NCBI GenBank assembly: GCA_020852815.1
Contig: JADZAN010000029.1
Location: forward strand, 1-34,676
From: Gemmatimonadaceae bacterium
GTDB taxonomy: Bacteria > Gemmatimonadota > Gemmatimonadetes > Gemmatimonadales > Gemmatimonadaceae
Direction: 5' to 3'
Length of the DNA stretch: 34,676 nucleotides
Below, piece by piece: positions 4,929 through 33,011 of this stretch (the stretch's first letter is position 1; the number at the start of each line of letters is the position of its first letter). Both the position numbers and the translations under genes were made by a program. The notes under the pieces were generated by a model. The model saw nothing but the letters and a program-made list of their open reading frames with translations, did not search any database and was not told the DNA's origin.

Positions 4929-6524
4929 ATGCGCTGGTGGCCGACGTCGCTCCGCGCGCGGCTCACGCTGTGGTTCACCGTCGTCCTCGGCGTGCCGCTC
5001 GTCGCCTTCGCGATCGTCTCGTACGTCGTCTTCGACCGCACGCTGCTGGCGCGCACCGATCACTTCGTGGATGACGCGCTGTCGGCGTTCGCGCGCGAGC
5101 TGGCCAACGAGCGGCGCCTGGCGCCGAGCAACGAGGTGGCGGCGCGCACGACGGTGCACGAGGTGCGCTTCTCGCAGCTGCAAATCGCCATCGCCGACTC
5201 GCTGGGGCGCACGCTGGCGGCGAGCGCGTCCGATCAGGACGCGGCGGCGCGCGCCGCGGGGATTCCCTCGTTCGACACCGCGCGCGCCCTCGCCGCCGCG
5301 CGCGGCGTGACCGCGGCCGCTCCGCGCTTCCTCACGCTGGCCGGCCCTGGCGGGGACTGGCGCCTGCAAGCGCGCATCGTGCGAGTGGCCGGCGAGCCGT
5401 TGCTCCTGGCGGGCATTGCGCCCTTGCGCGACATCGAGGACGTGCTGGCGCGCATCCGGCGCGCCTTCCTGGTGGCCATCCCGTTGCTGCTGGCGGCCGC
5501 CGCGGCGGGCGGGTTCTTCATGGCGCGCCGCTCACTGTCGCCGGTGGCGGTGATGGGCGCGCGCGCCGCCGCCATCACCGACGCCAACCTGCACGAACGC
5601 CTCCCCGTCGTCACGCCGCACGACGAGCTGGGTGGACTGGCCGTCGTCATCAACTCCCTCCTCGACCGGCTGGAGCGCGCCTTCGCGCAGCAACGACGCT
5701 TCATGGCCGACGCCTCGCACGAGCTGCGCACCCCGGCGGCCATCCTCAACACCGAGTCGCAGGTCACCCTCTCACGCGAGCACCGCAGCGAGGAGGAGTA
5801 CCGCGAGTCGATGACCGTGATGCAGCAGGCCGCCGCGCGCCTGACGCGCATCGTGGACGACCTCTTCCTATTGGCGCGCGCCGATGCCGGCCACCTCGTG
5901 GCTCGCATGCGCGACATCTACCTGGACGAGGTGGTGCACGACGTGACGCGCGCCGCACGCCCGTTAGGCGAACGGCGCGGCGTTCGCGTGGAACTGCAAC
6001 CGGTAGTCGACGCCCCCTTCCACGGCGACGCCGACCTCCTGGGGCGCCTCCTGCTCAACCTGCTGGACAACGCGATCAAGTTCTCCGTGGGTGGCGGCAC
6101 GGTCTCCGTTGCACTCGCTCGTCACGACGCCGCCGCCGGTTCCGCCGGCCCCGCCGGCCCCGCCGGCGCTGCGCGCTATGAGATCCGCGTCGTCGACGAC
6201 GGCCCGGGGATCCCCCCCGAGGTGCAGGAACGCGTCTTCGAGCGCTTCTTTCGTGGCGACCCGGCCCGCGGGCGCGTGGAACCGACCGAGACGAGCGGGG
6301 CCGGCCTCGGCCTCGCCATCTCGCGCCGCATTGCCGAGGCGCATGGCGGCACGTTGCAGCTCGTGGCATCGCGCCCGGGGCGCACGGAGTTCTGCGTCAC
6401 ACTCCCCGCCACCACGCGAGGGGCGTCGACCCCAGCGGCACCCGCCGCACCAGCCGCACCCACGACACCAACCGCACCGGCGACGCCATCGTCAGCACCG
6501 CGCGCCGCGCGTCTCCCCGCCTAA
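4929..6524 (+). CDS. HAMP-containing sensor histidine kinase
   Basis: 531 aa, the likely partner of the upstream response regulator. Membrane segments lie at about 13-38 and 178-200, flanking a roughly 140-residue extracytoplasmic sensor region. HAMP follows (about 200-255), then the dimerisation helix with ASHELRTP and phospho-acceptor His264. The ATPase domain shows N-box Asn381 (LDNAIKF), DDGPGIP and GAGLGLAI. Two oddities are visible: a collagen-like Gly-Pro-Ala insert near residue 400 made by three 9-bp DNA units, and a 40-residue Ala/Pro/Thr-rich C-terminal tail of low complexity. The stop codon TAA falls inside the first unit of a 16-bp tandem repeat. The signal sensed is unknown. Confidence 0.92.
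   Translation: MRWWPTSLRARLTLWFTVVLGVPLVAFAIVSYVVFDRTLLARTDHFVDDALSAFARELANERRLAPSNEVAARTTVHEVRFSQLQIAIADSLGRTLAASASDQDAAARAAGIPSFDTARALAAARGVTAAAPRFLTLAGPGGDWRLQARIVRVAGEPLLLAGIAPLRDIEDVLARIRRAFLVAIPLLLAAAAAGGFFMARRSLSPVAVMGARAAAITDANLHERLPVVTPHDELGGLAVVINSLLDRLERAFAQQRRFMADASHELRTPAAILNTESQVTLSREHRSEEEYRESMTVMQQAAARLTRIVDDLFLLARADAGHLVARMRDIYLDEVVHDVTRAARPLGERRGVRVELQPVVDAPFHGDADLLGRLLLNLLDNAIKFSVGGGTVSVALARHDAAAGSAGPAGPAGAARYEIRVVDDGPGIPPEVQERVFERFFRGDPARGRVEPTETSGAGLGLAISRRIAEAHGGTLQLVASRPGRTEFCVTLPATTRGASTPAAPAAPAAPTTPTAPATPSSAPRAARLPA
6144..6170 (+). repeat. Three 9-bp tandem units in the kinase gene
   Basis: GCCGGCCCC, GCCGGCCCC and GCCGGCGCT run back to back in frame, encoding the Gly-Pro-Ala stretch of the HAMP kinase ATPase domain. 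This is a slippage-prone, coding microsatellite-like tract. Confidence 0.6.
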
Positions 6525-18789: not shown

Positions 18790-19149
18790 ATGCCGTCCGA
18801 TCCTCGCGCCCTCCTCCCGCTCAAGCCCGCCGACCTCGTCCTCCTCCTCGTGCTCTCCGAAGAGGAGCGACACGGCTACGCGCTCGCCCGCGAGATCGCC
18901 GATCGCACCGACGGGCTGATCGCGCTCGAGCCGGGGAACCTGTACCGCATCATCCGTCGCCTGGAGGATGAAGGGCTGGTCGCCCCTGCGGCGCGGCGCG
19001 CGTCGGGCGATGGGGACGATGAGCGACGGCGCTACTACCGCCTGACCGCGTTAGGGGGGCAGGTGGCGGCGTTGGAGGTGCAGCGCCTGCGGTCGCTCGT
19101 TGCCTCGAAGGCGGCGCGCGCCCTTCCGCCGGTTGGCGCCACCGCATGA
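18790..19149 (+). CDS. PadR-family transcriptional regulator
   Basis: 119 aa from ATG 18790; an in-frame GTG at 18772 is an alternative. The winged-helix PadR pattern is clear: LKPADLVLLLVLSEEERHGYALAREI, then LEPGNLYRIIRRLEDEGLVAP and a wing with DDERRRYYRLTALG. The final 15-20 residues are a short C-terminal helix, as in PadR subfamily 2. Its stop overlaps the permease start as ATGA (19146-19149), so the regulator and transporter are translated as a unit. PadR genes coupled to ADOP permeases are a common arrangement in Acidobacteriota and Gemmatimonadota. It probably represses its own operon, with the dyad 36 nt upstream as the candidate site. Confidence 0.9.
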   Translation: MPSDPRALLPLKPADLVLLLVLSEEERHGYALAREIADRTDGLIALEPGNLYRIIRRLEDEGLVAPAARRASGDGDDERRRYYRLTALGGQVAALEVQRLRSLVASKAARALPPVGATA

Positions 19150-21887
19150 CGCATCGCGCCCCCGCCTCCGTCCGTTCGGTGGGCGAACGCGTCTATGGTG
19201 CCCTGCTCTGGCTCCTGCCGCGTCACTTTCGCCAGCGCTACGGCGAGGAGATGCGCGACTTCCTGCATGACGCACTCCGCGAGGGCCGCGCCGACGGCGG
19301 CTCGTTAGGGTCTCTGGTGGTCTGGTGGCATGCCATCCCCGACCTGTTGCACACCGCCGCGTACGAACATCTCGCCCTCCTCATCCGGCCTGCGCACCTC
19401 CTTCCCCCGCCTCACACGGACCGCATGTCGACCCTACTCCTGAGCGACGCCCGTTACGCGCTGCGCGCCTTCCGCAGGCACCCGGTCTTCTTCGGCGTCG
19501 CCCTGCTCGTTCTTGCCCTGGGGACGGGGGCGGTGAGCACGATCTTTTCCGTCGCCAACGCCGTCGTCCTGCGCCCGGTCCCCGGCGTGCGCGACGCATC
19601 GCGCGTGGTGGAGGTCGGGCGCACGCGCCCGTCGGGCGAGGGGTCGCTCACGGCGTCGTATCCCTACTTCGACTACCTGCGCGATCGCTCCCGATCGTTG
19701 GAGGGTGTGGCCGCATGGGGAATGACGCTGGTCAACGTCAATACGGGTGGGCAGGGAATCTCAGGACTTGGCAACGCCGTCAGCGGCAACTACTTCGCCG
19801 TCCTGGGAGTGCAACCGGCGCTCGGTCGCTTCTTCGCGGGGAACGATGACCGCGCGCTCTCCCGCGACCCGGTCGTCGTGGTGAGCCATGCCTTCTGGCA
19901 GAAGCACCTCGGGGGTGACAGCAGCGTCATCGGACAAGCGCTGCGCATGAACGGTCGCACCTTCACCGTGCTGGGGGTCGCGCCGGCGCGCTTCAGCGGG
20001 GTGTACCCGGCCCTGCGCACCGACGTCTGGATCCCGCTCGACTTCCGCACGCAGCTGCGCGGCAATCCGTCGACGCTCGACGATGCCGGCGCGTCCTGGA
20101 TGCAACTGGTTGGGCGGCTGGCCCCGGCGCACTCCGTGACGCAGGCGCGCGAGGAGCTCAGCGCGCTCACCGCACAGTACGTGGCGGCAAACGGCGCGGC
20201 GGAAGCGACGCGCACCAATGAATACTCGGCCGCCGACGTCGACCCCATCGCCGGCGTCCCGGCCGGCGTCGCCGGGAGCTTCACCTCCTTCTTCGCCGTG
20301 CTCCTGGTCATATCGGCGCTCGTCCTGATGATCGCCAGCATGAACGTGGCCTCGATGCTCCTTTCGCGTGCCGCCGCGCGCCGGCGCGAGATGGCGATGC
20401 GCATGGCCCTCGGCGCGGCGCGGCGCCGCCTCGTCCGGCAGCTGCTCGTGGAGACGCTGCTCCTCTTCGCCATCGGCGGGGGGTTAGGGATCGTGGTCGC
20501 GTTCTGGGGGACGCAGTTGCTGCAGCAGCTCCCGCTTCCCGAGAGCATTCCCCCGCTCAACCTCAACTTCACGCCGGACCTGCGCGTCCTCGCGGTGACC
20601 ATCGGCGCCTCGCTCGTCACGGGGCTCGTCTTCGGGCTCTCGCCCGCGTATCAGGGGACGCGCACCGACGTGCAGGCCGCAATGCGCAGCGATTCGGCCG
20701 GCGCCGGGCGCCGGCGTTCGCGCCTGCGCGACGGACTCATCGTGGCGCAGATCGCCATGTCGCTCCTCCTGCTCTCATCGGCCGGGCTCTTCGTCCGGGC
20801 GTTAGGCAAGGGGCGCGCGGTCGACCCGGGCTTTGCGGTGGACAACATCGTGGTGGCCACGGTCGACCTGGAGAGCGCCGGTTACGATGACGCGCGGGCG
20901 CGCACCTTCTTCCGCGCGCTGCGCGATCGCCTCGCCGCCTTCCCGGCGATGAAGCACGTCGGCGCCGGGCGCCTGCTTCCGCTCTCGATGTCCAACTCCG
21001 GGATCGACATCGCCCTCGCGTCGTATGCCCCGCCCAACGGGCGTGCCGGCGATGCCTTCGGGGTCAGCACCAACACCGTCGACGCCGGCTACTTCGACGC
21101 GTTGCGGCTGCCGATCCTGCAGGGGCGCACCTTCAACGACCGCGACGACGAGCACGCGCCGCAGGTCGCGATCGTGAACGAGACGTTTGCGCGCCGCTTC
21201 TTCCCGCAGGGGAGCGCCATCGGGCAGACATTCCGGCGCGACTCGCTCGTCGTCACCATCGTCGGTGTCACGCGCGACTCGAAGTTCCTCTCGCTCAACG
21301 AGTCTGCCGCGCCATTCGTCTACCTTCCGTTCGCGCAGCAGTGGCGCTCCGCGACCACCTTCCTCCTGCATCACGACGGACCCGCCGAGGCGGTGTCTGC
21401 GGCGCTGCTGCGCGAGATGACGGCGCTCGACCCCTCGCTTCCGCCCCCGCGCGTGAGTTCACTTCGCGAGTCGACCGCGATCGTCCTCCTTCCGCAGCGT
21501 GTGGCGGCCGGCGTGTCCGGCGCGCTGGGGCTCGTCGGCCTCCTGCTTGCCGCCGTTGGGCTCTACGGACTCCTTTCCTTCTCCACCACGCAGCGCACCC
21601 GCGAGATTGGCGTGCGCATCGCACTCGGCGCCTCGCGCGGTGGGATCGTGCGCATGGTGCTGGCCGAGGGGTTGCGGCTGGTCGGCATCGGGATGATGGC
21701 GGGCTTCGTCCTCGCGCTGTTCGCCACACGCGCCTTGCGCCCCTTCCTGTTCGGCCTCGATCCGTTGGATCCTGTCACCTTCGGGGCGATCGGCGTGATC
21801 CTCCTCGGTGTTACGGTGATCGCGACGGTGATCCCGGCGGCGCGCGCCGCCGGGATCGATCCCTCTTGGTCGATGCGGGAGGAGTAG
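19146..21887 (+). CDS. ADOP-type duplicated MacB/FtsX permease
   Basis: 913 aa. An N-terminal ADOP-specific cytoplasmic segment (1-95, LPRHFRQRYGEEMRDFLHDAL) precedes the permease. TM1 lies at about 113-138, then a MacB-like extracytoplasmic core (about 140-375). The first FtsX bundle has segments at about 379-402, 433-458 and 479-503. A second TM1-like segment at 531-552 leads to a second core domain, then the second FtsX bundle at about 788-815, 842-865 and 879-900. TREIGVRIALGASRGGIVRMVLAEG is the typical FtsX coupling motif; the first copy (RREMAMRMALGAARRRLVRQLL) matches it, showing internal duplication. Such proteins are transport or mechanotransmission permeases thought to work with an ABC ATPase, but no ATPase gene is adjacent. 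The substrate is unknown. Confidence 0.92.
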   Translation: MTHRAPASVRSVGERVYGALLWLLPRHFRQRYGEEMRDFLHDALREGRADGGSLGSLVVWWHAIPDLLHTAAYEHLALLIRPAHLLPPPHTDRMSTLLLSDARYALRAFRRHPVFFGVALLVLALGTGAVSTIFSVANAVVLRPVPGVRDASRVVEVGRTRPSGEGSLTASYPYFDYLRDRSRSLEGVAAWGMTLVNVNTGGQGISGLGNAVSGNYFAVLGVQPALGRFFAGNDDRALSRDPVVVVSHAFWQKHLGGDSSVIGQALRMNGRTFTVLGVAPARFSGVYPALRTDVWIPLDFRTQLRGNPSTLDDAGASWMQLVGRLAPAHSVTQAREELSALTAQYVAANGAAEATRTNEYSAADVDPIAGVPAGVAGSFTSFFAVLLVISALVLMIASMNVASMLLSRAAARRREMAMRMALGAARRRLVRQLLVETLLLFAIGGGLGIVVAFWGTQLLQQLPLPESIPPLNLNFTPDLRVLAVTIGASLVTGLVFGLSPAYQGTRTDVQAAMRSDSAGAGRRRSRLRDGLIVAQIAMSLLLLSSAGLFVRALGKGRAVDPGFAVDNIVVATVDLESAGYDDARARTFFRALRDRLAAFPAMKHVGAGRLLPLSMSNSGIDIALASYAPPNGRAGDAFGVSTNTVDAGYFDALRLPILQGRTFNDRDDEHAPQVAIVNETFARRFFPQGSAIGQTFRRDSLVVTIVGVTRDSKFLSLNESAAPFVYLPFAQQWRSATTFLLHHDGPAEAVSAALLREMTALDPSLPPPRVSSLRESTAIVLLPQRVAAGVSGALGLVGLLLAAVGLYGLLSFSTTQRTREIGVRIALGASRGGIVRMVLAEGLRLVGIGMMAGFVLALFATRALRPFLFGLDPLDPVTFGAIGVILLGVTVIATVIPAARAAGIDPSWSMREE

Positions 21888-23859: not shown

Positions 23860-23888
23860 TTGACATCCGGGCACACGTGTTGAAAAAT
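23860..23888 (+). promoter_or_regulatory. Promoter of the BlaI-type repressor operon
   Basis: A perfect -35 TTGACA (23860-23865), a 17-bp spacer and a -10-like AAAAAT (23883-23888, 4 of 6 matches). The -10 lies inside the first 16-bp operator half, so a bound repressor would block RNA polymerase. ATG 23938 is about 50 nt downstream. Confidence 0.6.
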
Positions 23889-23911
23889 CAGCAAAGCTGA
23901 AATTTCAGCAC
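23877..23911. promoter_or_regulatory. Putative BlaI operator, two inverted 16-bp sites
   Basis: Site 1 GTGTTGAAAAATCAGC (23877-23892) and the reverse complement of site 2 (GTGCTGAAATTTCAGC, 23896-23911) agree at 13 of 16 bases and are separated by AAA. Site 2 includes the perfect 14-bp palindrome at 23896-23909. BlaI/MecI repressors bind dyads in their own promoters as dimers. A third copy precedes the HEAT-protein gene at 26515-26530. Confidence 0.6.
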
Positions 23912-23937: not shown

Positions 23938-24330
23938 ATGCCGAAGCCCGCCCCCTCATCTGACCTCACGCGCCGCGAGCGACAGGTCATGGACATCCTT
24001 CACCGCCGGGGGCCGTCCACGGTGAGTGAGATCATGGACGACCTCCCCGATCCCCCCACCTACTCGGCCGTGCGCTCCATCCTCCGCATCCTGGGGGAGA
24101 AGGCGCTGGTGCAGTACCGTGAGGACGGCCCCCGCTACGTCTATCTCCCGACCGCGCCCGCCAACGAGTCGCGAGACACGGCGCTGGCCCACGTGGTCGA
24201 GACCTACTTCGCCGGCTCGACGGAGCAGGCGATTACCGCGCTCCTGCGGCTGAGCGACGCCGGGGTGAGCGAGGAGGAGATCGAACAGCTGCGCGCGCGT
24301 ATTCGCGCCGAGCGCGCCGGAGGGCGCTAG
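23938..24330 (+). CDS. BlaI/MecI/CopY-family repressor
   Basis: 130 aa from ATG 23938, with GGAG (23925-23928) 9 nt upstream. The family winged helix is evident: LTRRERQVMDILHRRGPSTVSEIMDDL, then PTYSAVRSILRILGEKALVQYREDGPRYVYLP. The C-terminal helices (75-130) form the dimerisation region, ending VSEEEIEQLRARI. In the known systems the repressor dimer sits on its own promoter until its gene neighbour, an M56 sensor protease, triggers its inactivation. The M56 gene begins 2 nt after this stop, so the pair is an operon. Two inverted operator-like sites overlap the promoter. The signal need not be a beta-lactam; many such pairs in non-pathogens respond to unknown envelope cues. Confidence 0.92.
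   Translation: MPKPAPSSDLTRRERQVMDILHRRGPSTVSEIMDDLPDPPTYSAVRSILRILGEKALVQYREDGPRYVYLPTAPANESRDTALAHVVETYFAGSTEQAITALLRLSDAGVSEEEIEQLRARIRAERAGGR
24319..24324 (+). promoter_or_regulatory. Shine-Dalgarno of the M56-HEAT gene
   Basis: GGAGGG inside the last codons of the repressor gene, 8 nt before ATG 24333. This gives efficient, coupled translation of the protease. Confidence 0.6.
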
Positions 24331-24332
24331 CC

Positions 24333-26447
24333 ATGATCCCCGCTCTGTCGCCGGAAACGCTCGCCCTCCTCGTCCTGCTGGGGAAGGCGACGGTCGTCCT
24401 CGTCGTCGCCTTCGCCGGCGCCACGCTGCTCGAGCGCGCCCCGGCAGGTGCACGGCACCTGCTGTGGCTCTCCACGCTCGGCGCCATCCTCTTCCTCCCC
24501 GCGCTGTCCACGTGGAGCCCTTTGCGGCTGGCGGTACTTCCCGTGGCGTGGCTGGTGCCGCACGTGGCGACGCCCGACCGTGGTGCCACGGCGCCGAACG
24601 CGACCTCACCAGTTGCATCTGACGATGCGAGACGCGCGACATCGACTCGCGCGCCCAGTACCGTCTCGCCAGGCGAAACCGCCGCGGCAGGCGCCGACGA
24701 GGTGCAGCTGCAAGGCGCGCTGGCGGCCGCGCCCGCGGCGACCGCGTGGCGCCCAACGATGTGGCAGCTCCTCCTGGGCGCGTGGGCGGCGGTCGCGCTC
24801 GCCCTCGGCGGCTGGCTCGCCATCGGGTTCCTCAGCGTCCGTCGCATCGTGCGGCGCGCCACGCCGCTCGTCGATCGCAAATGGTCGGCGCCGCTCTACG
24901 ACATCGCCGACCGACTGGGCGTGGACCGCACGCCGCGACTCGTGCGCAGCGAGGACGTGAAGATGCCCTTCGCCGCCGGGCTCGTCTCGCCAACGGTCGT
25001 GCTCCCCGCCGAGTGCGACACGTGGGACGAAGCCCGCCGTCGCGCCGTGCTCCTGCACGAACTCGCCCACATCGCCCGCAACGACCTGTTAGGGCACACG
25101 CTTGGGCGCGTGGCCTGCGCGTTGTACTGGTTCCACCCGCTCGTCTGGCGCGCCGCGCGCCGCCTGCGAGTCGAGAGCGAACGCGCCTGCGACGACCTCG
25201 CCCTTTCTTGCGGCGTTCGCCCGTCGTCGTATGCCGAGCACCTCCTGGACATCGTCACCAGCATACGCCAGCCACTCACCCCAGCCACGGCGATTCCCAT
25301 GGCCGATCGCAAGGAGTTCGAGGGACGAATGCTCGCCATTCTCGACCCCGAGGTGCGGCGCCAGGGATCGCGCCGGCAGTCGCTCGTCGTTGTCACGGGA
25401 CTGCTCGGCGTGGCGGCGCTGGTGGGTGGAACGACCCCCACCGCGGCGCGTGCCTCGACGGCGCCCCTGGTCGCCCGGGAACCGGCCGTGCCTAACGTCG
25501 ACCGCGCGACGCCACGTGGTGATACGGCGAATGCGCTCGTCGTCCCCTCCTCCCGCCTGGCGCAAGGCTCCGGTGAGCGCCGCCCGGAGACAGGGAGGCG
25601 CGACGCCACGCCGCGCGCGGCGGCCGTCGATTCCGCCGATCCCGTCGGCGCCATCCTGGCCACGATGACCGCTGCAACGGCGGCGCAGGATCAACCGGCC
25701 ACGCGGGATCGCCGTGATGATCGCGCCGAGTTGCTGATGCAGGTGCTGCGCGCCGACACCAGCGCCGGCATCCGTCGCACCGCGGCATGGGGACTGTCGC
25801 GCTACGCCGAACGCGCCGATGTCGTGACCGCGCTCGCGCAGGCGCTGCGCAGCGACAAGGACCAGCACGTGCGCGAGATGGCGGCGTGGGCGTTGGGTGG
25901 TGGCGACGACACCCCGGCCTCACGCGCGGCGCTCCTCGCCGCGCTTGGCGGCGACAGCGACGCCGATGTGCGCGAGTCCGCCGCGTGGGCGCTTGGACAA
26001 ACGACCGACAGCCACTCGGCGCCCGAGGTCGACGACGCGCTGGCCAAGGCGCTCGGCGATGCATCGCCCCGCGTACGCGCCCACGCCATGTGGGCCATCG
26101 GACGCGTGGGCGAGGGGAAGGTCCCGGCCGCCGTGCTCACCGCGCTCGAGTCGCAGGACGAACGTGACCGCCAGGTGCGCGTGATGGCAGCGTGGGTCCT
26201 GTTCCGTCGCGAGGATGCAACAGCTGTACCCGCCATCGAGCGCGCGTTGGGGAGGGAAACGGACGGCCAGGTGCGCGTGGCACTCATCCGCGCGTTAGGC
26301 GCGCTGGGCGAAAGCTCGGCCCCTGCGCTCGCACGGTTGCTCGATTCTCCCGACCGTGACGTCCGGGCGGCGGTGGTCGGGGCGCTCGCCGGGCGCAACG
26401 GCGGCCCGTGGCCCATGCCCATGCCGCGCCCCCGCCCCTTCCCCTGA
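24333..26447 (+). CDS. M56 (BlaR1-like) metallopeptidase fused to HEAT repeats
   Basis: 704 aa. N-terminal membrane segments lie at about 10-30, 35-55 and 60-75, and another near 145-170. The gluzincin site is LLHELAHIARNDLL with His242, Glu243 and His246. RVESERACDDLAL downstream carries the further Glu/Asp residues of the family. A membrane segment near 345-370 precedes a Ser/Arg/Pro-rich linker. From about 460 to 690 it has about seven HEAT repeats of 31 residues (VREMAAWALGGG, VRESAAWALGQ, VRAHAMWAIGRVG, VRVMAAWVLFRRE and others), where BlaR1 would have a penicillin-binding sensor. It ends GPWPMPMPRPRPFP, a tail shared with the next protein. By analogy it cleaves or inactivates the BlaI-type partner when the HEAT domain, probably outside the membrane, detects something; the sensing role is inference. 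Confidence 0.88.
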   Translation: MIPALSPETLALLVLLGKATVVLVVAFAGATLLERAPAGARHLLWLSTLGAILFLPALSTWSPLRLAVLPVAWLVPHVATPDRGATAPNATSPVASDDARRATSTRAPSTVSPGETAAAGADEVQLQGALAAAPAATAWRPTMWQLLLGAWAAVALALGGWLAIGFLSVRRIVRRATPLVDRKWSAPLYDIADRLGVDRTPRLVRSEDVKMPFAAGLVSPTVVLPAECDTWDEARRRAVLLHELAHIARNDLLGHTLGRVACALYWFHPLVWRAARRLRVESERACDDLALSCGVRPSSYAEHLLDIVTSIRQPLTPATAIPMADRKEFEGRMLAILDPEVRRQGSRRQSLVVVTGLLGVAALVGGTTPTAARASTAPLVAREPAVPNVDRATPRGDTANALVVPSSRLAQGSGERRPETGRRDATPRAAAVDSADPVGAILATMTAATAAQDQPATRDRRDDRAELLMQVLRADTSAGIRRTAAWGLSRYAERADVVTALAQALRSDKDQHVREMAAWALGGGDDTPASRAALLAALGGDSDADVRESAAWALGQTTDSHSAPEVDDALAKALGDASPRVRAHAMWAIGRVGEGKVPAAVLTALESQDERDRQVRVMAAWVLFRREDATAVPAIERALGRETDGQVRVALIRALGALGESSAPALARLLDSPDRDVRAAVVGALAGRNGGPWPMPMPRPRPFP

Positions 26448-26514
26448 GGAACGTGAGCGGGCGCTGAGCGTCGCGTCACCACGCGTGCGCCCAGCGCCTG
26501 TTTCTTCACCACAC

Positions 26515-26530
26515 GTGCTGAAAAATCAAC
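26515..26530 (+). promoter_or_regulatory. Third copy of the putative BlaI operator
   Basis: GTGCTGAAAAATCAAC matches site 1 upstream of the repressor at 14 of 16 bases. The match extends left as CACACGTG (identical at 23873-23879 apart from one position), so over 20 bp are shared. It lies 17 nt before ATG 26548, in a 100-nt gap otherwise without features, and overlaps the best -10-like AAAAAT (26521-26526). Confidence 0.6.
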
Positions 26531-26547
26531 CGTCCGCCTCCACCCGA

Positions 26548-27987
26548 ATGGCCATGTTCAGGCTCCCCCTCATCTTCGCGTTAGGCGCCGTCGCCGGTGG
26601 CAGTGTCGCCACCAGCCGCCACCATGCCCCGCTCGTGCCCACGGTTGGCGTCGAAGCCGTCGCGGTGGCTGTCACGTCCAACGGCATCCTCGCGCCCGTC
26701 CCCGGCGCAGAGTCGGCGCGTCCCATCATGGATGTGCGCGGGTTGCTGGGTGCACTGCACGGGCTTCCCGGCGTCGTGTGCGGACTTGCGGCCGAGGCGG
26801 CGTCGGGCTGGGGAGGCGGGTCGTGGATGAATGCGCCCGCGCCGCCACTCGGCCCCGACGCCGCGGCCCGCACCATGCACTTTCCTCGCGCCCGCCTAAC
26901 GCCTGCCGAGATTCGCATGGTGCTCGATTCCATCGCGTCGCCGGATCCGTGCGTGCGTGAACTCTCCGTGCGTCTCGTGGGTCGTCTCGACACGGCCTTC
27001 GTCGAGGCGCCGCTGCGCGAGCGCCTCGCATCGTCCAACGCCGTGGCCACGCGCGAGGCGGCGGCGCTCGCGCTCGGGCTCGTGCGCGCCAGGGGGTCCA
27101 GCGACGCGCTGCAGCGCCTGCTGGGCGAGGACAGCGATGGGCTGCGGGCCAACGCCGTGTGGGCGCTGGGGCGCCTCGACGACAAGCAGGTCGCCCCCGC
27201 CGTGCGCCGCGCGCTCCGGGACGACGCCGACCTGGTGCGCGACGCGGCGGCGGCGGCGTTAGGCACACTGGACGACGACGACGCCGTCGACGAGTTGCTG
27301 CGCGTGCTGCGCACGGACAAGGTCGCCCGCGTGCGCCGCACGGCGGCGTGGGCCCTTGGACGCCTGGACCAGAAGCGCGCCGGCAGCGGCCTGGTGTCCG
27401 CGTTAGGCGCCGAGCAGGATGACGACGTGCGCGAGACCATCGTGTGGGCGCTGGGCACCATCGAGGTGGCCGACGCAGCGCCGGCGATCACCGAGGTCCT
27501 GCGGAAGGATCGGCAGGGAGAGGTGCGGGAGATGGCGGCGTGGGCGCTGGGCCAGCTCGAGTCGGCGGCGGCAGTCGACGCGTTAGGCGAGGCGGCGGGG
27601 GGCGACGCCGAGCCGTCGGTGCGCGCCACCGCCGCGTGGGCGCTGGGGCAACTGGAGCTGCGGCAGGCGCCGGCGGGGCTCATCAGGGCCGTCACCGACA
27701 AGGATGCCGAGGTGCGCACGCGCGCGGCGTGGGCGCTGTCGGAGATCCACGACGCGCGGGCCATCAACGCGCTGCGTTCGGCGCTCAAGGGCGAGAGCGC
27801 GGCGCGGGCGCGCAAGGCTCAGATCCGCGCGCTGGTGCTGTCGGGGGAGAAGTCGGAGGCGTTCTTCAAGGAGCTGCTGACGTCGGACGATCCCGAGGTG
27901 CGTGAGGCGGCGGTGGGGGGGATGGCCGGCCAGCGCATGCATCCGTGGCCCTGGCCGATGCCGAGGCCGCGGCCGTTTCCGGAGTAG
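26548..27987 (+). CDS. Exported HEAT-repeat protein
   Basis: 479 aa from ATG 26548 (MAMFRLPLIFALGAVAGGSVATS), a signal peptide or membrane anchor. The frame is open upstream, but that region overlaps the M56 gene. After a loop region (25-130), HEAT/PBS-lyase-type repeats of 31-32 residues run from about 130 to 455: AALALGLV, NAVWALGRLD, DAAAAALGTLD, RTAAWALGRLD, ETIVWALGTI, EMAAWALGQLE, ATAAWALGQLE, RAAWALSEI. The C-terminus PWPWPMPRPRPFPE is almost the same as the end of the M56-HEAT protein. Repeats are about 93-96 bp apart in DNA, at 27058, 27151, 27241, 27340, 27436, 27532, 27628 and 27721. HEAT arrays are binding scaffolds; it may compete with, or be bound by, the sensor HEAT domain of the protease. 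An operator-like 16-mer in front suggests control by the same repressor. Confidence 0.85.
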   Translation: MAMFRLPLIFALGAVAGGSVATSRHHAPLVPTVGVEAVAVAVTSNGILAPVPGAESARPIMDVRGLLGALHGLPGVVCGLAAEAASGWGGGSWMNAPAPPLGPDAAARTMHFPRARLTPAEIRMVLDSIASPDPCVRELSVRLVGRLDTAFVEAPLRERLASSNAVATREAAALALGLVRARGSSDALQRLLGEDSDGLRANAVWALGRLDDKQVAPAVRRALRDDADLVRDAAAAALGTLDDDDAVDELLRVLRTDKVARVRRTAAWALGRLDQKRAGSGLVSALGAEQDDDVRETIVWALGTIEVADAAPAITEVLRKDRQGEVREMAAWALGQLESAAAVDALGEAAGGDAEPSVRATAAWALGQLELRQAPAGLIRAVTDKDAEVRTRAAWALSEIHDARAINALRSALKGESAARARKAQIRALVLSGEKSEAFFKELLTSDDPEVREAAVGGMAGQRMHPWPWPMPRPRPFPE

Positions 27988-28100: not shown

Positions 28101-30398
28101 TCAGTTCATCGCCCCCACCCCCGCGCGCCCCCCGGCCGGCAGGTGCTCCGTCAGGTAGCGCTGCAGCAGCGAATAGATGTGCTGCGTCGTCCCCGCCCCC
28201 TCGTAGATCCCGTGCGAGCGGTTCGGGTAGGCCATCATGTCGAACGGCTTTCCCAGCTGGATGAGGCGATTCACGAGGCGCTCGGTCCCCTGATAATGGA
28301 CGTTGTCGTCCCCGCTCCCATGCACGATGAGGAGCTTGCCCTTCAGCCCCTCGGCGTGGTTGATCGCCGAGCCAAGCTGGTAGCCGGCAACGTTATCCTG
28401 CGGGAGCCCCATGTAGCGCTCCTGGTAGATCGTGTCGTAGAGGCGTTGGTCCGGGACCGGCGCCACCGACATCCCGACCTTGAAGACGTCGGGCTCGCGG
28501 AACATGGCGTTGAGCGTGTTGGTCCCGCCCCCGCTCCACCCCCAGATCGCCACGCGGCTCGTGTCGACGAAGGCGTGCATCGCCGCGTACGCGCGCAGCG
28601 CACCGGCCTGCTCGGCGGCCGTCGTCGCCCCCACTGCGCCGTAGATCCCCTTGCGCCACGCGCGCCCCTTGGGTGACGGCGTTCCGCGCGTGTCGAACGA
28701 CATCACGAGGTACCCCTGGTCGGCGATCAGGCGGTGGAAGAGCGCCGTGTTCCCTCCCCAACGATCGGCAGCGGTCATCCCGGCTGGCTCGCCGTAGATG
28801 TGCACGAGGACGGGGTAGCGCTTTGCCGGGTCGAAGTCGCGCGGACGCATCACGTACCCGTCCACCGGGAGCCCCTGCGTCGTGGTCACGGTGAAGAACT
28901 CGGTCGCCGGAGCGCCTAACGCCTGCAACCTGGCGCGCAGCGCTGCGTTGTCCTCGAGAACGCGGACCACCTCGTGGCCGGGGAGGCGGATGATCTCCGT
29001 GCGCGGCGGTTCGTCGAAGCGCGACACCGAGTGCAGCGCCCATCGCCCGTCGGGGGAGATGTCGTATCGGTGCGTCCCTGGCTGGTCAGCCGGTGTCACG
29101 CGTGTCGCCGGCCCACCCTTGAGCGGGACGCGGTACAGATAGTTGTGGATGGCATCACCCGGCGACGCCATCACGTAGAGGATCCCCGCCTTCTCGTCCA
29201 TTCCGGCGAGCGCGACATCGAAGGCGCCCGGCGTGAGCAACGTCGTCGCGCCGGTGGTGCGACTGACGGTGTAGAGGTGGCGCCATCCGTCACGCTCGCT
29301 CTCCACGATCGCCAGCGGCCCCGCCTTCCCTCCCGCGATCCAGCGTGGCTCCTGCACCAGCACCCACGCGCTGTCGGCGTCGGTCCACACCACGCGCCCG
29401 CGCCCGGTGGACGCATCGCCCACCCAGAAGTCGTTGCGGTTCTGCAGGCGATTGAGGTGCTGCACCAGGACACTCGCGGAATCGAGCCATTGCACCTGAC
29501 CGATGTAGCTGGCGGCCGTGTCCCCGGCGACGTCCATCCACGTGACCGCCCCGCCGGTGGGCGCCACCACGCCTAACGTGACGCGCGAGTTGGTCGTCCC
29601 CGCCTTGGGATAGGGAATGGCCGTCGTGTACGGGTAGAGCGAATCGGTGTCGTTGATGAGCAGGAAGTCGCGCACCGCCGAGGCGTCGAAATGCCAGAAG
29701 AGGAGACGCCTCGAGTCCGGGCTCCACTCGAACGCCTGGCGAATTCCCAGCTCTTCCTCATACACCCAGTCCGACGTCCCGTTGATGCTGGTGCGCGAGC
29801 CGTCGTGCGTGAGGCGCGTGATTGCCCCCGTCGCCAGCTCCTCGGCGTACATGTCGTGCTCGCGCACGTAAGCCACCCAGCGGCCGTCGGGCGAGAACGT
29901 GGCGAACATCAACGTGGACGGCGCGGCGTCGCCACCGAGCTTCCTGAGCGTCCCCGCCGTGCGATCGAGCACCCAATAGTCGCCGCGCGTGTTGTAGCGC
30001 CAGACGCGCGTGGTGTTCGTGAAGAGGAGGAGCTTGCGGTTGTCGTCCGACCAGGCAAAGGCGTCGAAGGCAAGGGGTGCGGTTGCACCTGCCGGCGTGA
30101 GTTGCGCGGCCGTCACCAGCACGGTGCGGGCATCGGTCGCCGTCTCATGACGCACGATCTCGCGCCCGGCGCCGGGCGTCGCCGGTTCCACGGTGAGAAA
30201 GGCCTTGCCTCCCTCGATCCATCGCAACTGGCCAACGCCGCGGGCGTTGAACTCGCCGGAGAAGACGCGCTGGACGGTGAGGGCGCCCGGCGCTTGCCCC
30301 TGGGCCCCTGCGGCCTGCGCAAAGAGCGTCGTCGCCAAGAGCGCTGTCGCGGAGATCAGGGAGGCGAGCGTCATGGCGCGGATCGTGGAGGGAGGCAT
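28101..30398 (-). CDS. Secreted S9 (DPP IV-like) peptidase
   Basis: 765 aa from ATG 30398 (MPPSTIRAMTLASLISATALLATTLFAQAAGAQG), a signal peptide; Met at 30374 is an alternative. An N-terminal eight-bladed propeller (about 45-510) carries SDWVYEEELG, the double-Glu motif that anchors the substrate amino terminus in dipeptidyl peptidase IV. The C-terminal alpha/beta-hydrolase has Ser622 in GWSGGG, an Asp in GSGDDNVHYQ (697/698) and His729 in NRSHGIYEG, the expected triad. It probably removes X-Pro or X-Ala dipeptides from peptides outside the cytoplasm. The open frame upstream of 30398 is Arg/Pro-rich and comes from 12-bp DNA repeats, so is not counted. It is divergent from another S9 peptidase. 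Confidence 0.92.
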   Translation of the reverse strand: MPPSTIRAMTLASLISATALLATTLFAQAAGAQGQAPGALTVQRVFSGEFNARGVGQLRWIEGGKAFLTVEPATPGAGREIVRHETATDARTVLVTAAQLTPAGATAPLAFDAFAWSDDNRKLLLFTNTTRVWRYNTRGDYWVLDRTAGTLRKLGGDAAPSTLMFATFSPDGRWVAYVREHDMYAEELATGAITRLTHDGSRTSINGTSDWVYEEELGIRQAFEWSPDSRRLLFWHFDASAVRDFLLINDTDSLYPYTTAIPYPKAGTTNSRVTLGVVAPTGGAVTWMDVAGDTAASYIGQVQWLDSASVLVQHLNRLQNRNDFWVGDASTGRGRVVWTDADSAWVLVQEPRWIAGGKAGPLAIVESERDGWRHLYTVSRTTGATTLLTPGAFDVALAGMDEKAGILYVMASPGDAIHNYLYRVPLKGGPATRVTPADQPGTHRYDISPDGRWALHSVSRFDEPPRTEIIRLPGHEVVRVLEDNAALRARLQALGAPATEFFTVTTTQGLPVDGYVMRPRDFDPAKRYPVLVHIYGEPAGMTAADRWGGNTALFHRLIADQGYLVMSFDTRGTPSPKGRAWRKGIYGAVGATTAAEQAGALRAYAAMHAFVDTSRVAIWGWSGGGTNTLNAMFREPDVFKVGMSVAPVPDQRLYDTIYQERYMGLPQDNVAGYQLGSAINHAEGLKGKLLIVHGSGDDNVHYQGTERLVNRLIQLGKPFDMMAYPNRSHGIYEGAGTTQHIYSLLQRYLTEHLPAGGRAGVGAMN

Positions 30399-30425
30399 GG
30401 TGGGGCGCGCGGTATGGGGCGGGCG

Positions 30426-30461
30426 AGGACGTCTCGGTGGACGTCTCGGAGGACGTCTCGG
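30426..30461. repeat. 3 x 12-bp tandem repeat in a divergent promoter region
   Basis: Units AGGACGTCTCGG, TGGACGTCTCGG and AGGACGTCTCGG, each with the palindrome GACGTC, are followed by a partial fourth (AGGACGTCTT) at 30465-30474. They lie 28 nt upstream of the DPP IV-like gene start in the 222-nt gap (30399-30620) between the two peptidase genes. Equal helical spacing (about one turn) would suit cooperative protein binding. I see no further convincing promoter elements in the gap. Confidence 0.7.
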
Positions 30462-30620
30462 CCGAGGACGTCTTACGCGAAGGCACGTCGACGCGAGACC
30501 ACGTTGGTGCAAACGCGCGGTCATCACGTGATTGACCGCGTAATCTGCAGGATGTTCGCGCGTTGACCAGAGCGATCACGAGGCGCAGCTTCCGCCCTTC
30601 CTGCGCCGCCCTTCCGCCTC

Positions 30621-33011
30621 ATGAGTCGAACGATGCGCCTGTTGCCGTGGCAGACACGATGGATCCTCGCGGCATTCGTCCCCGCGCCTCTCGTTGCGCA
30701 GGCAACGACCGTCACCCCCACACCGCCCTCGATCGACTACCAGCGCGCCGAGCAGATGCTCAGCTGGAATGCGCTGCGTCACGTGTCGGGCGATCAGGTC
30801 GTGCCGACCTTCTATCGCGATTCCACGCGCTTCTGGTATCGCGTGATGACGCCGCGCGGCGCGGAGTTCGTGACCGTGTCGAGCGCCACTGGGCAGCGTG
30901 CGCTGCTGTTCGAGAACGCGCGCCTCGCCGCATCGCTGTCGCGCGCCGCCGACACGGCGATCGCCGGGGAGCGCCTCCCCTTCACCGCCATCGCCTTTGC
31001 CGACGAGGGACGCGACGAATCGCGAATCGTCGTGCGCATCGGTGCACACGGCTACACCTGCGTCCTGGCGTCGTATGCGTGCGTGAAGGGCGACACGCTT
31101 GCTGGCCGCAGCCGCTTCGTGCGTTCTCCCGATGCGCAGTGGGACGCGTTTGCGTCGGGCGGCAACCTGTGGGTGCGAAGGGTCGGGACGGCCGATTCCG
31201 TGCAGCTGACGAGCGATGGCATGGCCGGCTGGGCATACGGCGTGGGGACGCCGCCACCCACGCGCGTGCGCTCGCGAGCCCCTGAACGTCCGCAGCTCTT
31301 CTGGTCGCCCGACAGCAGGCGCATTGCGGTCCTCCGCATCGACGAGCGCGGCGTGCGCATCTCGCACCTGTACTCGTCCACCACCACGCGCCCCACGCAC
31401 TACCAGTGGCCGTACGCCCTCCCCGGCGATTCGGTCGTGCCGATGACCGACCTCTACCTCGTGGACGTCGCGGCGCGCATCAGCCGGCACGTCGATGGCT
31501 CGCGACAACCGCAGCTCGCGTTCTACGGCTTCGGCGCTCGCCAGGTGCAATGGTCGCCGGCGTCGGACCGCGTGTTCTTCACCCACGTCGACCGCGGCCC
31601 AAAACACGTGCAGCTGATGGTCGCCGATGCGGCGGGGAGCGGGGGTGGAGGCGCGCCCACGGTTGGCCGGCAGGTGCTGGCCGACAGCAGCAAGACGTAC
31701 GTCATTGGCTCCATCGACATCACCAACGGGGCGACCAACTGGAAGCCGCTCCCGAACGGTGACGTCGTCTGGTTCTCCGAGCGCGACGGATGGGGACACC
31801 TGTACCACGTGGGAGCGGACGGCGCCGTCCGCCACCAGGTGACCAGCGGCAACTGGGTCGTCACCGAGCTGCTGGATGTGGATGTCGCTTCGGGGCGCGT
31901 CTACTTCACCGCGCGCGGGCGCGAAGCCACGCGTCACCCCGAGTATGACCTGCTCTACTCCGTCGCGCTCGACGGGAGCGCGCTCACCCTCCTTTCTCCC
32001 GAGGATGGCGATCACACGATCGTCCCGGTGCCGGGCGCGCACGTCCTCATCGACAGTTACTCGCGCGTCGACACGCCACCGGTCACCGTGCTGCGCGGCG
32101 CCGATGGGCGCGTGATCCGCGAGCTGGAGCGCGCCGACATCTCTTCACTGCGCGCCACGGGGTGGCGACCGGGCGAGGTGTTCCGCGCCAAGGCGCGCGA
32201 CGGCGTCACCGAGATCACCGGCGTCCTCTACAAGCCGTCCACCTTCGACTCCACGAAGGCGTATCCCGTCATCGACCACATCTATCCCGGCCCGCTCATC
32301 TCGCCCGTGTCGCACGCGTTCTATCCGTCGCGCGTCCTCTCGTCGTACTCCAGCATGGGACAGGTGCAAGCGCTGGCCGAGCTGGGCTTCATCGTGGTGG
32401 AGATCGATGCGTTAGGCAACACCGGGCGCAACAAGTCGCTCTACACCGCGTGGTACGGCAACATGGGCGACAACGGGATCCCCGACCACGTCGCCGCCCT
32501 CCGGGAGCTCGGGTCCCGGCATCGGTGGATGGACCTCGCGCGGGTGGGGATTTTCGGGCATTCGGGGGGTGGGTTCTCGTCGACCGATGCCATGCTGCGC
32601 TTTCCGGACGTCTTCTCGGTCGCCGTGTCCACGTCGGGGAATCACGACAACGCCGCGTACTACCACGGGTGGGGAGAGCGCTTCCAGGGACTCCTCGTGC
32701 GCGAAACGCTGCGCGGGGGCGACAACTTCGCCGACGCGGCCAACAAGAACATTGCCGCCAAGCTCAGGGGGAAGCTCTTCCTCATCCACGGCGACCTGGA
32801 TGACAACGTGCACCCCGCCAACACCCTCGCCCTCGTCGACGCCCTGGTGAAGGCCAACAAGCGCTTCGACCTCCTCATCCTTCCCGACGCCAACCACGAC
32901 CTCACGAGCCACCCGTACGTCATTCGGCGCACGTGGGACTTCTTCGTGGAGAACCTGTTGGGGGCCAAGGGCCCGAGCGACTATGCCATCGCGCCGCGGC
33001 CGGTGCCGTAG
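30621..33011 (+). CDS. Secreted S9 family prolyl oligopeptidase-like peptidase
   Basis: 796 aa from ATG 30621; MRLLPWQTRWILAAFVPAPLVAQA forms a signal peptide (Met30633 is an alternative start). The propeller domain occupies about 40-540. The C-terminal hydrolase shows GIFGHSGGGFS with Ser648, HGDLDDNVHP with Asp727/728 and PDANHDL with His759, the serine-Asp-His triad order of the S9 clan. It lacks the DWVYEEE motif of the neighbouring DPP IV-like protein, so its specificity may differ. Both are exported and may act together in degrading peptides. The only GTTAGGC word in this gene is an Ala-Leu-Gly codon run at 32411. Confidence 0.92.
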   Translation: MSRTMRLLPWQTRWILAAFVPAPLVAQATTVTPTPPSIDYQRAEQMLSWNALRHVSGDQVVPTFYRDSTRFWYRVMTPRGAEFVTVSSATGQRALLFENARLAASLSRAADTAIAGERLPFTAIAFADEGRDESRIVVRIGAHGYTCVLASYACVKGDTLAGRSRFVRSPDAQWDAFASGGNLWVRRVGTADSVQLTSDGMAGWAYGVGTPPPTRVRSRAPERPQLFWSPDSRRIAVLRIDERGVRISHLYSSTTTRPTHYQWPYALPGDSVVPMTDLYLVDVAARISRHVDGSRQPQLAFYGFGARQVQWSPASDRVFFTHVDRGPKHVQLMVADAAGSGGGGAPTVGRQVLADSSKTYVIGSIDITNGATNWKPLPNGDVVWFSERDGWGHLYHVGADGAVRHQVTSGNWVVTELLDVDVASGRVYFTARGREATRHPEYDLLYSVALDGSALTLLSPEDGDHTIVPVPGAHVLIDSYSRVDTPPVTVLRGADGRVIRELERADISSLRATGWRPGEVFRAKARDGVTEITGVLYKPSTFDSTKAYPVIDHIYPGPLISPVSHAFYPSRVLSSYSSMGQVQALAELGFIVVEIDALGNTGRNKSLYTAWYGNMGDNGIPDHVAALRELGSRHRWMDLARVGIFGHSGGGFSSTDAMLRFPDVFSVAVSTSGNHDNAAYYHGWGERFQGLLVRETLRGGDNFADAANKNIAAKLRGKLFLIHGDLDDNVHPANTLALVDALVKANKRFDLLILPDANHDLTSHPYVIRRTWDFFVENLLGAKGPSDYAIAPRPVP

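Follow-up and report, generated by a model that had tools for sequence, protein, structure and literature searches.

In the BlaI/BlaR1 system, BlaI is cleaved directly by BlaR1 (PMC9834060). The sensor of BlaR1 resembles class D beta-lactamases, so that the sensor and the induced enzyme recognize the same drug (PMC7593790). In BlaR1, the loop EL1 competes for the protein's own sensor site until the drug displaces it (PMC9834060). The bla divergon of B. licheniformis has three operators through which the repressor acts (PMC3305447).

We analyzed a window of 34,676 nucleotides (contig C29 of a 5.38-Mb Gemmatimonadota genome). It contains three genes in the same direction that encode a BlaI-type repressor, an M56 metalloprotease with a C-terminal HEAT array, and an exported HEAT protein (Table 1). 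To our knowledge, work on BlaR1 has dealt almost exclusively with its role as a penicillin receptor, and a literature search found nothing on BlaR1 with HEAT repeats or on BlaR1 in Gemmatimonas.

TABLE 1 Positions of cassette features and of genes near the cassette in the window
Feature	Position	Strand	Description
BlaI/MecI-type winged-helix repressor, 130 aa	23938..24330	+	Pfam Penicillinase_R PF03965, 86.4 bits versus cut-off of 22.6, E 2e-24
M56 metalloprotease with C-terminal HEAT array	24333..26447	+	Tail GGPWPMPMPRPRPFP; Pfam
Exported HEAT protein, 479 aa	26548..27987	+	Signal peptide, two-Cys N-terminal region, HEAT solenoid, tail HPWPWPMPRPRPFPE
Codons of sensor tail	26400..26444	+	GGPWPMPMPRPRPFP
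Codons of exported-protein tail	27940..27984	+	HPWPWPMPRPRPFPE
blaI promoter	23860..23888	+	-35 TTGACA 23860-23865, 17-nt spacer, -10-like AAAAAT 23883-23888
Operator 1 (putative)	23878..23893	.	TGTTGAAAAATCAGCA, over the -10 box; near-palindrome match
Operator 2 (putative)	23895..23910	.	AGCTGAAATTTCAGCA, 17 nt from operator 1; near-palindrome match
Operator 3 (putative)	26516..26531	.	TGCTGAAAAATCAACC, 16 nt upstream of the exported HEAT ATG; near-palindrome match
MacB/FtsX-type permease	19146..21887
DPP IV-type prolyl oligopeptidase	28101..30527	-	Divergent pair adjoining the cassette
DPP IV-type prolyl oligopeptidase	30621..33011	+	Divergent pair adjoining the cassette

Architecture of the cassette

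The repressor has the traits of the BlaI/Penicillinase_R family, namely, the family profile and two palindromic operator-like sites at its own promoter. In the protease, the Peptidase_M56 domain (residues 109 to 335; Pfam, E 1e-34; 120 bits versus a cut-off of 31) carries the HEXXH motif as HELAH at residues 242 to 246; the motif was found in 15/15 aligned M56 proteins, as HELAH in all but one relative, which reads HEVAH. The original prediction held that a HEAT array takes the place of the penicillin sensor. This was borne out by Pfam, which detected HEAT_2 (E 4e-31) C-terminal to the Peptidase_M56 domain, in an array of approximately residues 463 to 687, and no penicillin-binding (class D-like) sensor or beta-lactamase family.

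The exported HEAT gene most likely starts at the ATG at 26548, with the signal peptide MAMFRLPLIFALGAVAGGSVA, which would direct its product to the periplasm, the compartment predicted for the sensor array. (Gene starts beyond the window were taken from a simple ORF caller.) The product was likewise predicted to consist of the same repeat type, and HEAT_2 was indeed detected in it (E 4e-57). The arrays of the two window proteins do not belong to unrelated HEAT subfamilies, as they align with 46% identity over the last ~245 residues. HEAT-repeat membership is further indicated for the exported protein by its modeled helical solenoid (pLDDT of ~90 across most of residues 120 to 410), which among solved structures is closest to alphaRep and PP2A/importin-type repeats.

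Both structure models are single-sequence predictions. That of the M56 protein (mean pLDDT, 55; good in the HEAT part only) contains helices at residues 7 to 35, 38 to 58, 140 to 176, and 347 to 364, with basic residues preceding the last one. Because this pattern matches the topology of BlaR1, the HEAT array is predicted to be periplasmic.

The exported protein also has a region of ~80 residues after the signal peptide with two invariant cysteines (C78 and C135), which is retained even in the exported proteins of tail-less relatives. Its presence in sensors was considered and rejected, the profile matches there covering mainly the HEAT part. This exported-only region and the operators are additions to the original prediction.

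Conservation of the cassette, its operator-like sites, and the C-terminal tail

Conservation of the tail and of the gene adjacency in relatives had been named beforehand as a point on which the prediction could fail, and both were conserved. An M56-HEAT protein of nearly full length was present in about a dozen of 60 relatives, with a second HEAT gene directly after it and with alignments of both HEAT proteins extending to the last residues. Gene maps of 20 loci showed the cassette intact among otherwise different neighbors, and a search of 395 genomes added loci with the same conservation. The both-tailed cassette is kept in some thirty Gemmatimonadota genomes despite differing flanking genes, and a BlaI-type repressor gene adjoins the M56 gene in nearly all relatives for which upstream DNA was available. 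In a tree of M56 domains, the tailed operator-bearing cassettes formed one group of 28. A scan of genome contigs yielded mostly generic HEAT proteins, with tail and operators in L176 (Gemmatimonadetes) only.

Side observations were made on neighboring and related loci. The DPP IV-type pair beside the cassette is not kept as neighbors in relatives. At L051 (G018:C4), an orphan tailed exported HEAT gene is followed by a nucleoside hydrolase gene, with no adjoining blaI, M56 gene, or operator. Two M56 proteins of the same genome (L287 and L288) have C-terminal sensor regions without a Pfam match, one with a GGG-rich repeat and the other with a repeat centered on IASDGD. The M56 sensors of Gemmatimonadota look very diverse.

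Side-by-side reading of the DNA upstream of all cassettes revealed the near-palindrome TGYTGA-WWWW-TCARCA. Often, a pair of such sites spaced 17 nt apart lies before blaI and a single site before the exported gene. In most cassettes, TTGAC[ATG]-N17-AWWWWT occurs with the operator at a fixed offset, and the A/T core of the operator coincides with the -10 box. A 15-base operator pattern was detected in 18/60 genomes, which were exactly those with the tailed cassette, and was absent from the remainder; a reversed control pattern gave 0 matches in the 60 genomes. In the window genome, the operator occurs at three places only, all in the cassette (23878, 23895, and 26516), and matches with two mismatches were no more frequent there than the control level. 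The site preceded 36 of the 38 tailed exported genes examined as an exact match, and one further gene with a single mismatch, but none of 17 tail-less or sensor-tail-only loci. Among 395 Gemmatimonadota genomes, it was present in 34/36 with a strong match to the exported N-terminal region (E below 1e-24) versus 74/359 others (Fisher p 4e-19, uncorrected for relatedness); some of these 74 represent other families, which may use similar operators. Given the cassette-specific operator-like site in front of it, the exported HEAT gene most likely has a promoter of its own and is controlled by the BlaI-type repressor. The regulatory link originally proposed between the two HEAT proteins thus survives in spirit, in the form of this operator-like site.

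Ten operator sites outside the cassette were found in the first 60 genomes. Five of these precede genes encoding DUF5916 with a CBM9_1 domain (binomial probability, 6e-11, at an assumed gene share of 0.3%), and these genes, each with its own operator, lie far from the cassette (L122, L124, L127, L129, and L131). Two others precede MacB/FtsX-type permeases (L121 and L126), and the remainder were single cases. In L036, L040, L044, L047, L253, and L260, a DUF5916 gene also comes immediately after the cassette, and such genes adjoin tail-less cassettes too (e.g., L053). The C-terminal ends of the DUF5916/CBM9 products led us to guess that they are outer-membrane proteins. None of the several DUF5916 genes in the window genome bears an operator, nor is there one in front of the MacB/FtsX-type permease of the window. 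A literature search found no paper on DUF5916, and the link to the operators offers a route to the function of this family.

Single loci carried the operator before still other genes. In one relative (L285; G097:C105), one operator copy is located ahead of a gene for a serine hydrolase of the PF00144 beta-lactamase family. At positions 5139 to 11674 of L281 (G227:C19:12000-25000), a DUF5916 gene follows a second M56 gene, which lacks HEAT repeats and carries these operators as well; the operator family therefore appears to serve other M56 sensors too.

The tails of the two window proteins read exactly as originally reported and share the C-terminal end PWP-x-P-x-PRPRPFP. When the last 23 residues of the exported protein were searched against all six frames of the genome, the query protein (E 2e-11) and the tail of the M56 protein (E 1e-4) were recovered; no third tail-bearing gene was found in the 5.38 Mb, the remaining matches being noise (E 0.28 and up). 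Because only the two cassette genes were recovered, the match is neither due to chance nor a general sorting signal; a general processing signal was likewise not supported, and the reading of the tail as a general sorting tag was rejected. The exported tail is nearly invariant (consensus, P-W-P-[WQME]-P-R-P-R-P-F-P), and the consensus of the sensor tails differs (P-[WR]-P-W-P-[EQRD]-P-R-P-[FY]-P). In 31 distinct exported sequences, which were selected for a PWP-type tail but not for arginine, both Arg residues were invariant (31/31) and Phe was present in 23/31. The Arg codons vary, with up to six in use (CGT, CGC, AGG, CGG, AGA, and CGA), as do the Pro codons synonymously. (A loose codon pattern for the tail, tried on 60 genomes, was too unspecific.) Where operator-bearing cassettes are of the HEAT type of the window, all exported proteins with a complete C terminus are tailed; the tails of the L046/L048 family are unlike the rest (PWPWPWPMPLNR and PRPEPMPMPEPRPFPGPEE). 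Among farther relatives, a sensor that finishes in a (PR)n, (PE)n, or (PQ)n run is accompanied by a short partner lacking a tail, or both proteins are tail-less. At the class level, a proline tail occurs on the sensor alone, on the exported protein alone, or on neither, and the tail is thus not strictly obligatory.

It had also been suggested that the second protein arose by duplication of the sensor part. In a tree of 31 sensor arrays and 34 exported arrays, the two types formed separate groups, with 2 label changes versus 21.9 in shuffles, and a recent duplication in this lineage was therefore rejected, except for the L046/L048 family, in which the joint clustering of sensor and exported arrays resembles the outcome of local exchange or of a more recent duplication. 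The separation of the array types in the tree indicates an old pair, with any duplication having occurred before these genera arose. An ancient duplication is a possible source, and the self-similarity of the repeats makes claims on deeper origins from this tree unsafe.

Proposed circuit and alternative readings

The best overall explanation, to which we assign a probability of about 0.5, is a self-contained BlaI/BlaR1-like cassette with a HEAT sensor and a HEAT effector for the same ligand. Judging from the sequences, the presence of a BlaI/BlaR1-type circuit with a HEAT sensor is itself highly probable. Within it, we infer repressor binding and cleavage, topology, a shared ligand, and feedback as follows. 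The repressor would bind the TGYTGA-WWWW-TCARCA sites and silence both its own operon (repressor and M56 sensor) and the separately promoted gene of the exported HEAT protein. The M56 protein would reside in the inner membrane, with the protease facing the cytoplasm and the HEAT array in the periplasm. When a ligand meets this array, the protease would inactivate the repressor, and both promoters would open. The main product would be a soluble periplasmic HEAT protein that, sharing the array type and the tail of the sensor, most likely engages the ligand or partner of the sensor, and by binding or clearing the signal it would return the sensor to its off state. Several relatives seem to place a predicted outer-membrane protein of the DUF5916/CBM9 type under the repressor as well. 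The stimulus may for this reason be envelope related, and these targets hint at outer-membrane or glycan matters.

That the exported protein is an effector engaging the same ligand as the sensor follows the logic of BlaR1, whose sensor resembles beta-lactamases, and we rate its chances slightly below even. The counterpoint is that similar repeats are no proof of a shared ligand, because HEAT arrays in general bind many things. The overall explanation is also weakened by the incomplete pairing of the tails (G018 and the class-level relatives) and by the lack of an operator at the DUF5916 genes of the window genome. What the sensor senses may also be what the exported product handles.

A tentative alternative is direct feedback or decoy action, in which one protein inserts its tail into the HEAT groove of its counterpart (or of another copy) and mixed complexes switch the sensor off or hold it on. 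Such tail-in-groove contact is attractive given the anatomy of the two proteins, both of which combine a groove with a tail peptide, and the exported gene is the operator-bearing target. The competition of EL1 for the sensor site of BlaR1, from which the drug displaces it (PMC9834060), is in line with this alternative, as is the modest confidence of the sensor tail (pLDDT, 62 to 69) versus the disordered exported tail (33 to 37) in the single-sequence models. Both the class-level cassettes with a tail on one partner only and G018 argue against it; the latter genome has a tailed exported protein lacking an operator, with no tailed sensor nearby or among its M56 proteins examined. Somewhat more doubtful is a peptide-swap receptor, in which the sensor tail and the tail of the induced soluble HEAT protein would compete for the same HEAT grooves and the state of the receptor would depend on how ligand, its own tail, and the secreted copy balance one another; if true, this would be an M56 receptor with a built-in soluble antagonist.

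It is unlikely that the Pro/Trp/Arg tail tethers both proteins to a common envelope partner (e.g., peptidoglycan or an outer-membrane component) while the arrays have separate jobs, since no candidate partner gene consistently accompanies the cassette. The near invariance of the exported tail amid synonymous codon change, its detection on only these two genes of the genome, and the different Pro-Arg or Pro-Glu tail in the same place in class-level sensors would fit such tethering. Least probable by far is a functionless, low-complexity proline end drifting with simple-repeat DNA beside a circuit that alone matters: in distant relatives the tail varies as (PX)n runs, in line with drift, but the constancy of Arg amid synonymous codon change fits purifying selection on the protein rather than repeat slippage.

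Comparison with known repressor-protease systems

CopY/TcrY copper repressors, which are relatives of BlaI, are also winged-helix proteins, and CopY_TcrY was the best NCBIfam match of the cassette repressor. The score was far below the cut-off (38 versus 122 bits), and the cassette repressor, unlike CopY/TcrY, is partnered with an M56 protease. The HEAT parts resemble alphaRep and phycobilin-lyase-type HEAT proteins in repeat sequence and solenoid fold; those proteins are artificial or enzyme linked, and none of the ones recovered is fused to M56 or is itself an exported partner bearing this tail.

As in BlaI/BlaR1 and MecI/MecR1 (S. aureus and B. licheniformis), a repressor gene is followed by a gene for an M56 HEXXH membrane protease. 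The window M56 protein scored 82.7 bits against NCBIfam blaR1_generic, below the cut-off of 400. Its sensor is a HEAT array, in contrast to the penicillin-binding sensor of BlaR1/MecR1, and the predicted target is an exported HEAT protein (in relatives, DUF5916 too) instead of a beta-lactamase or PBP2a. The operator TGYTGA-WWWW-TCARCA also differs, and the genes are codirectional, whereas those of BlaI/BlaR1 are divergent. The repressor-protease machine thus appears to be wired here to a repeat-protein sensor and a secreted sensor-like protein, with operators readable from sequence, which provides a first handle on what the M56 receptors of nonpathogens sense and a testable case, outside antibiotic resistance, of the rule that a sensor is made like its effector. 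As with BlaI/BlaR1, regulator and target promoters carry multiple operators (PMC3305447), which in the cassette are operator-like sites read from DNA alone. In BlaI/BlaR1, the sensor shares its fold with the enzyme for the same ligand (PMC7593790); in the cassette, sensor and output are both HEAT proteins.
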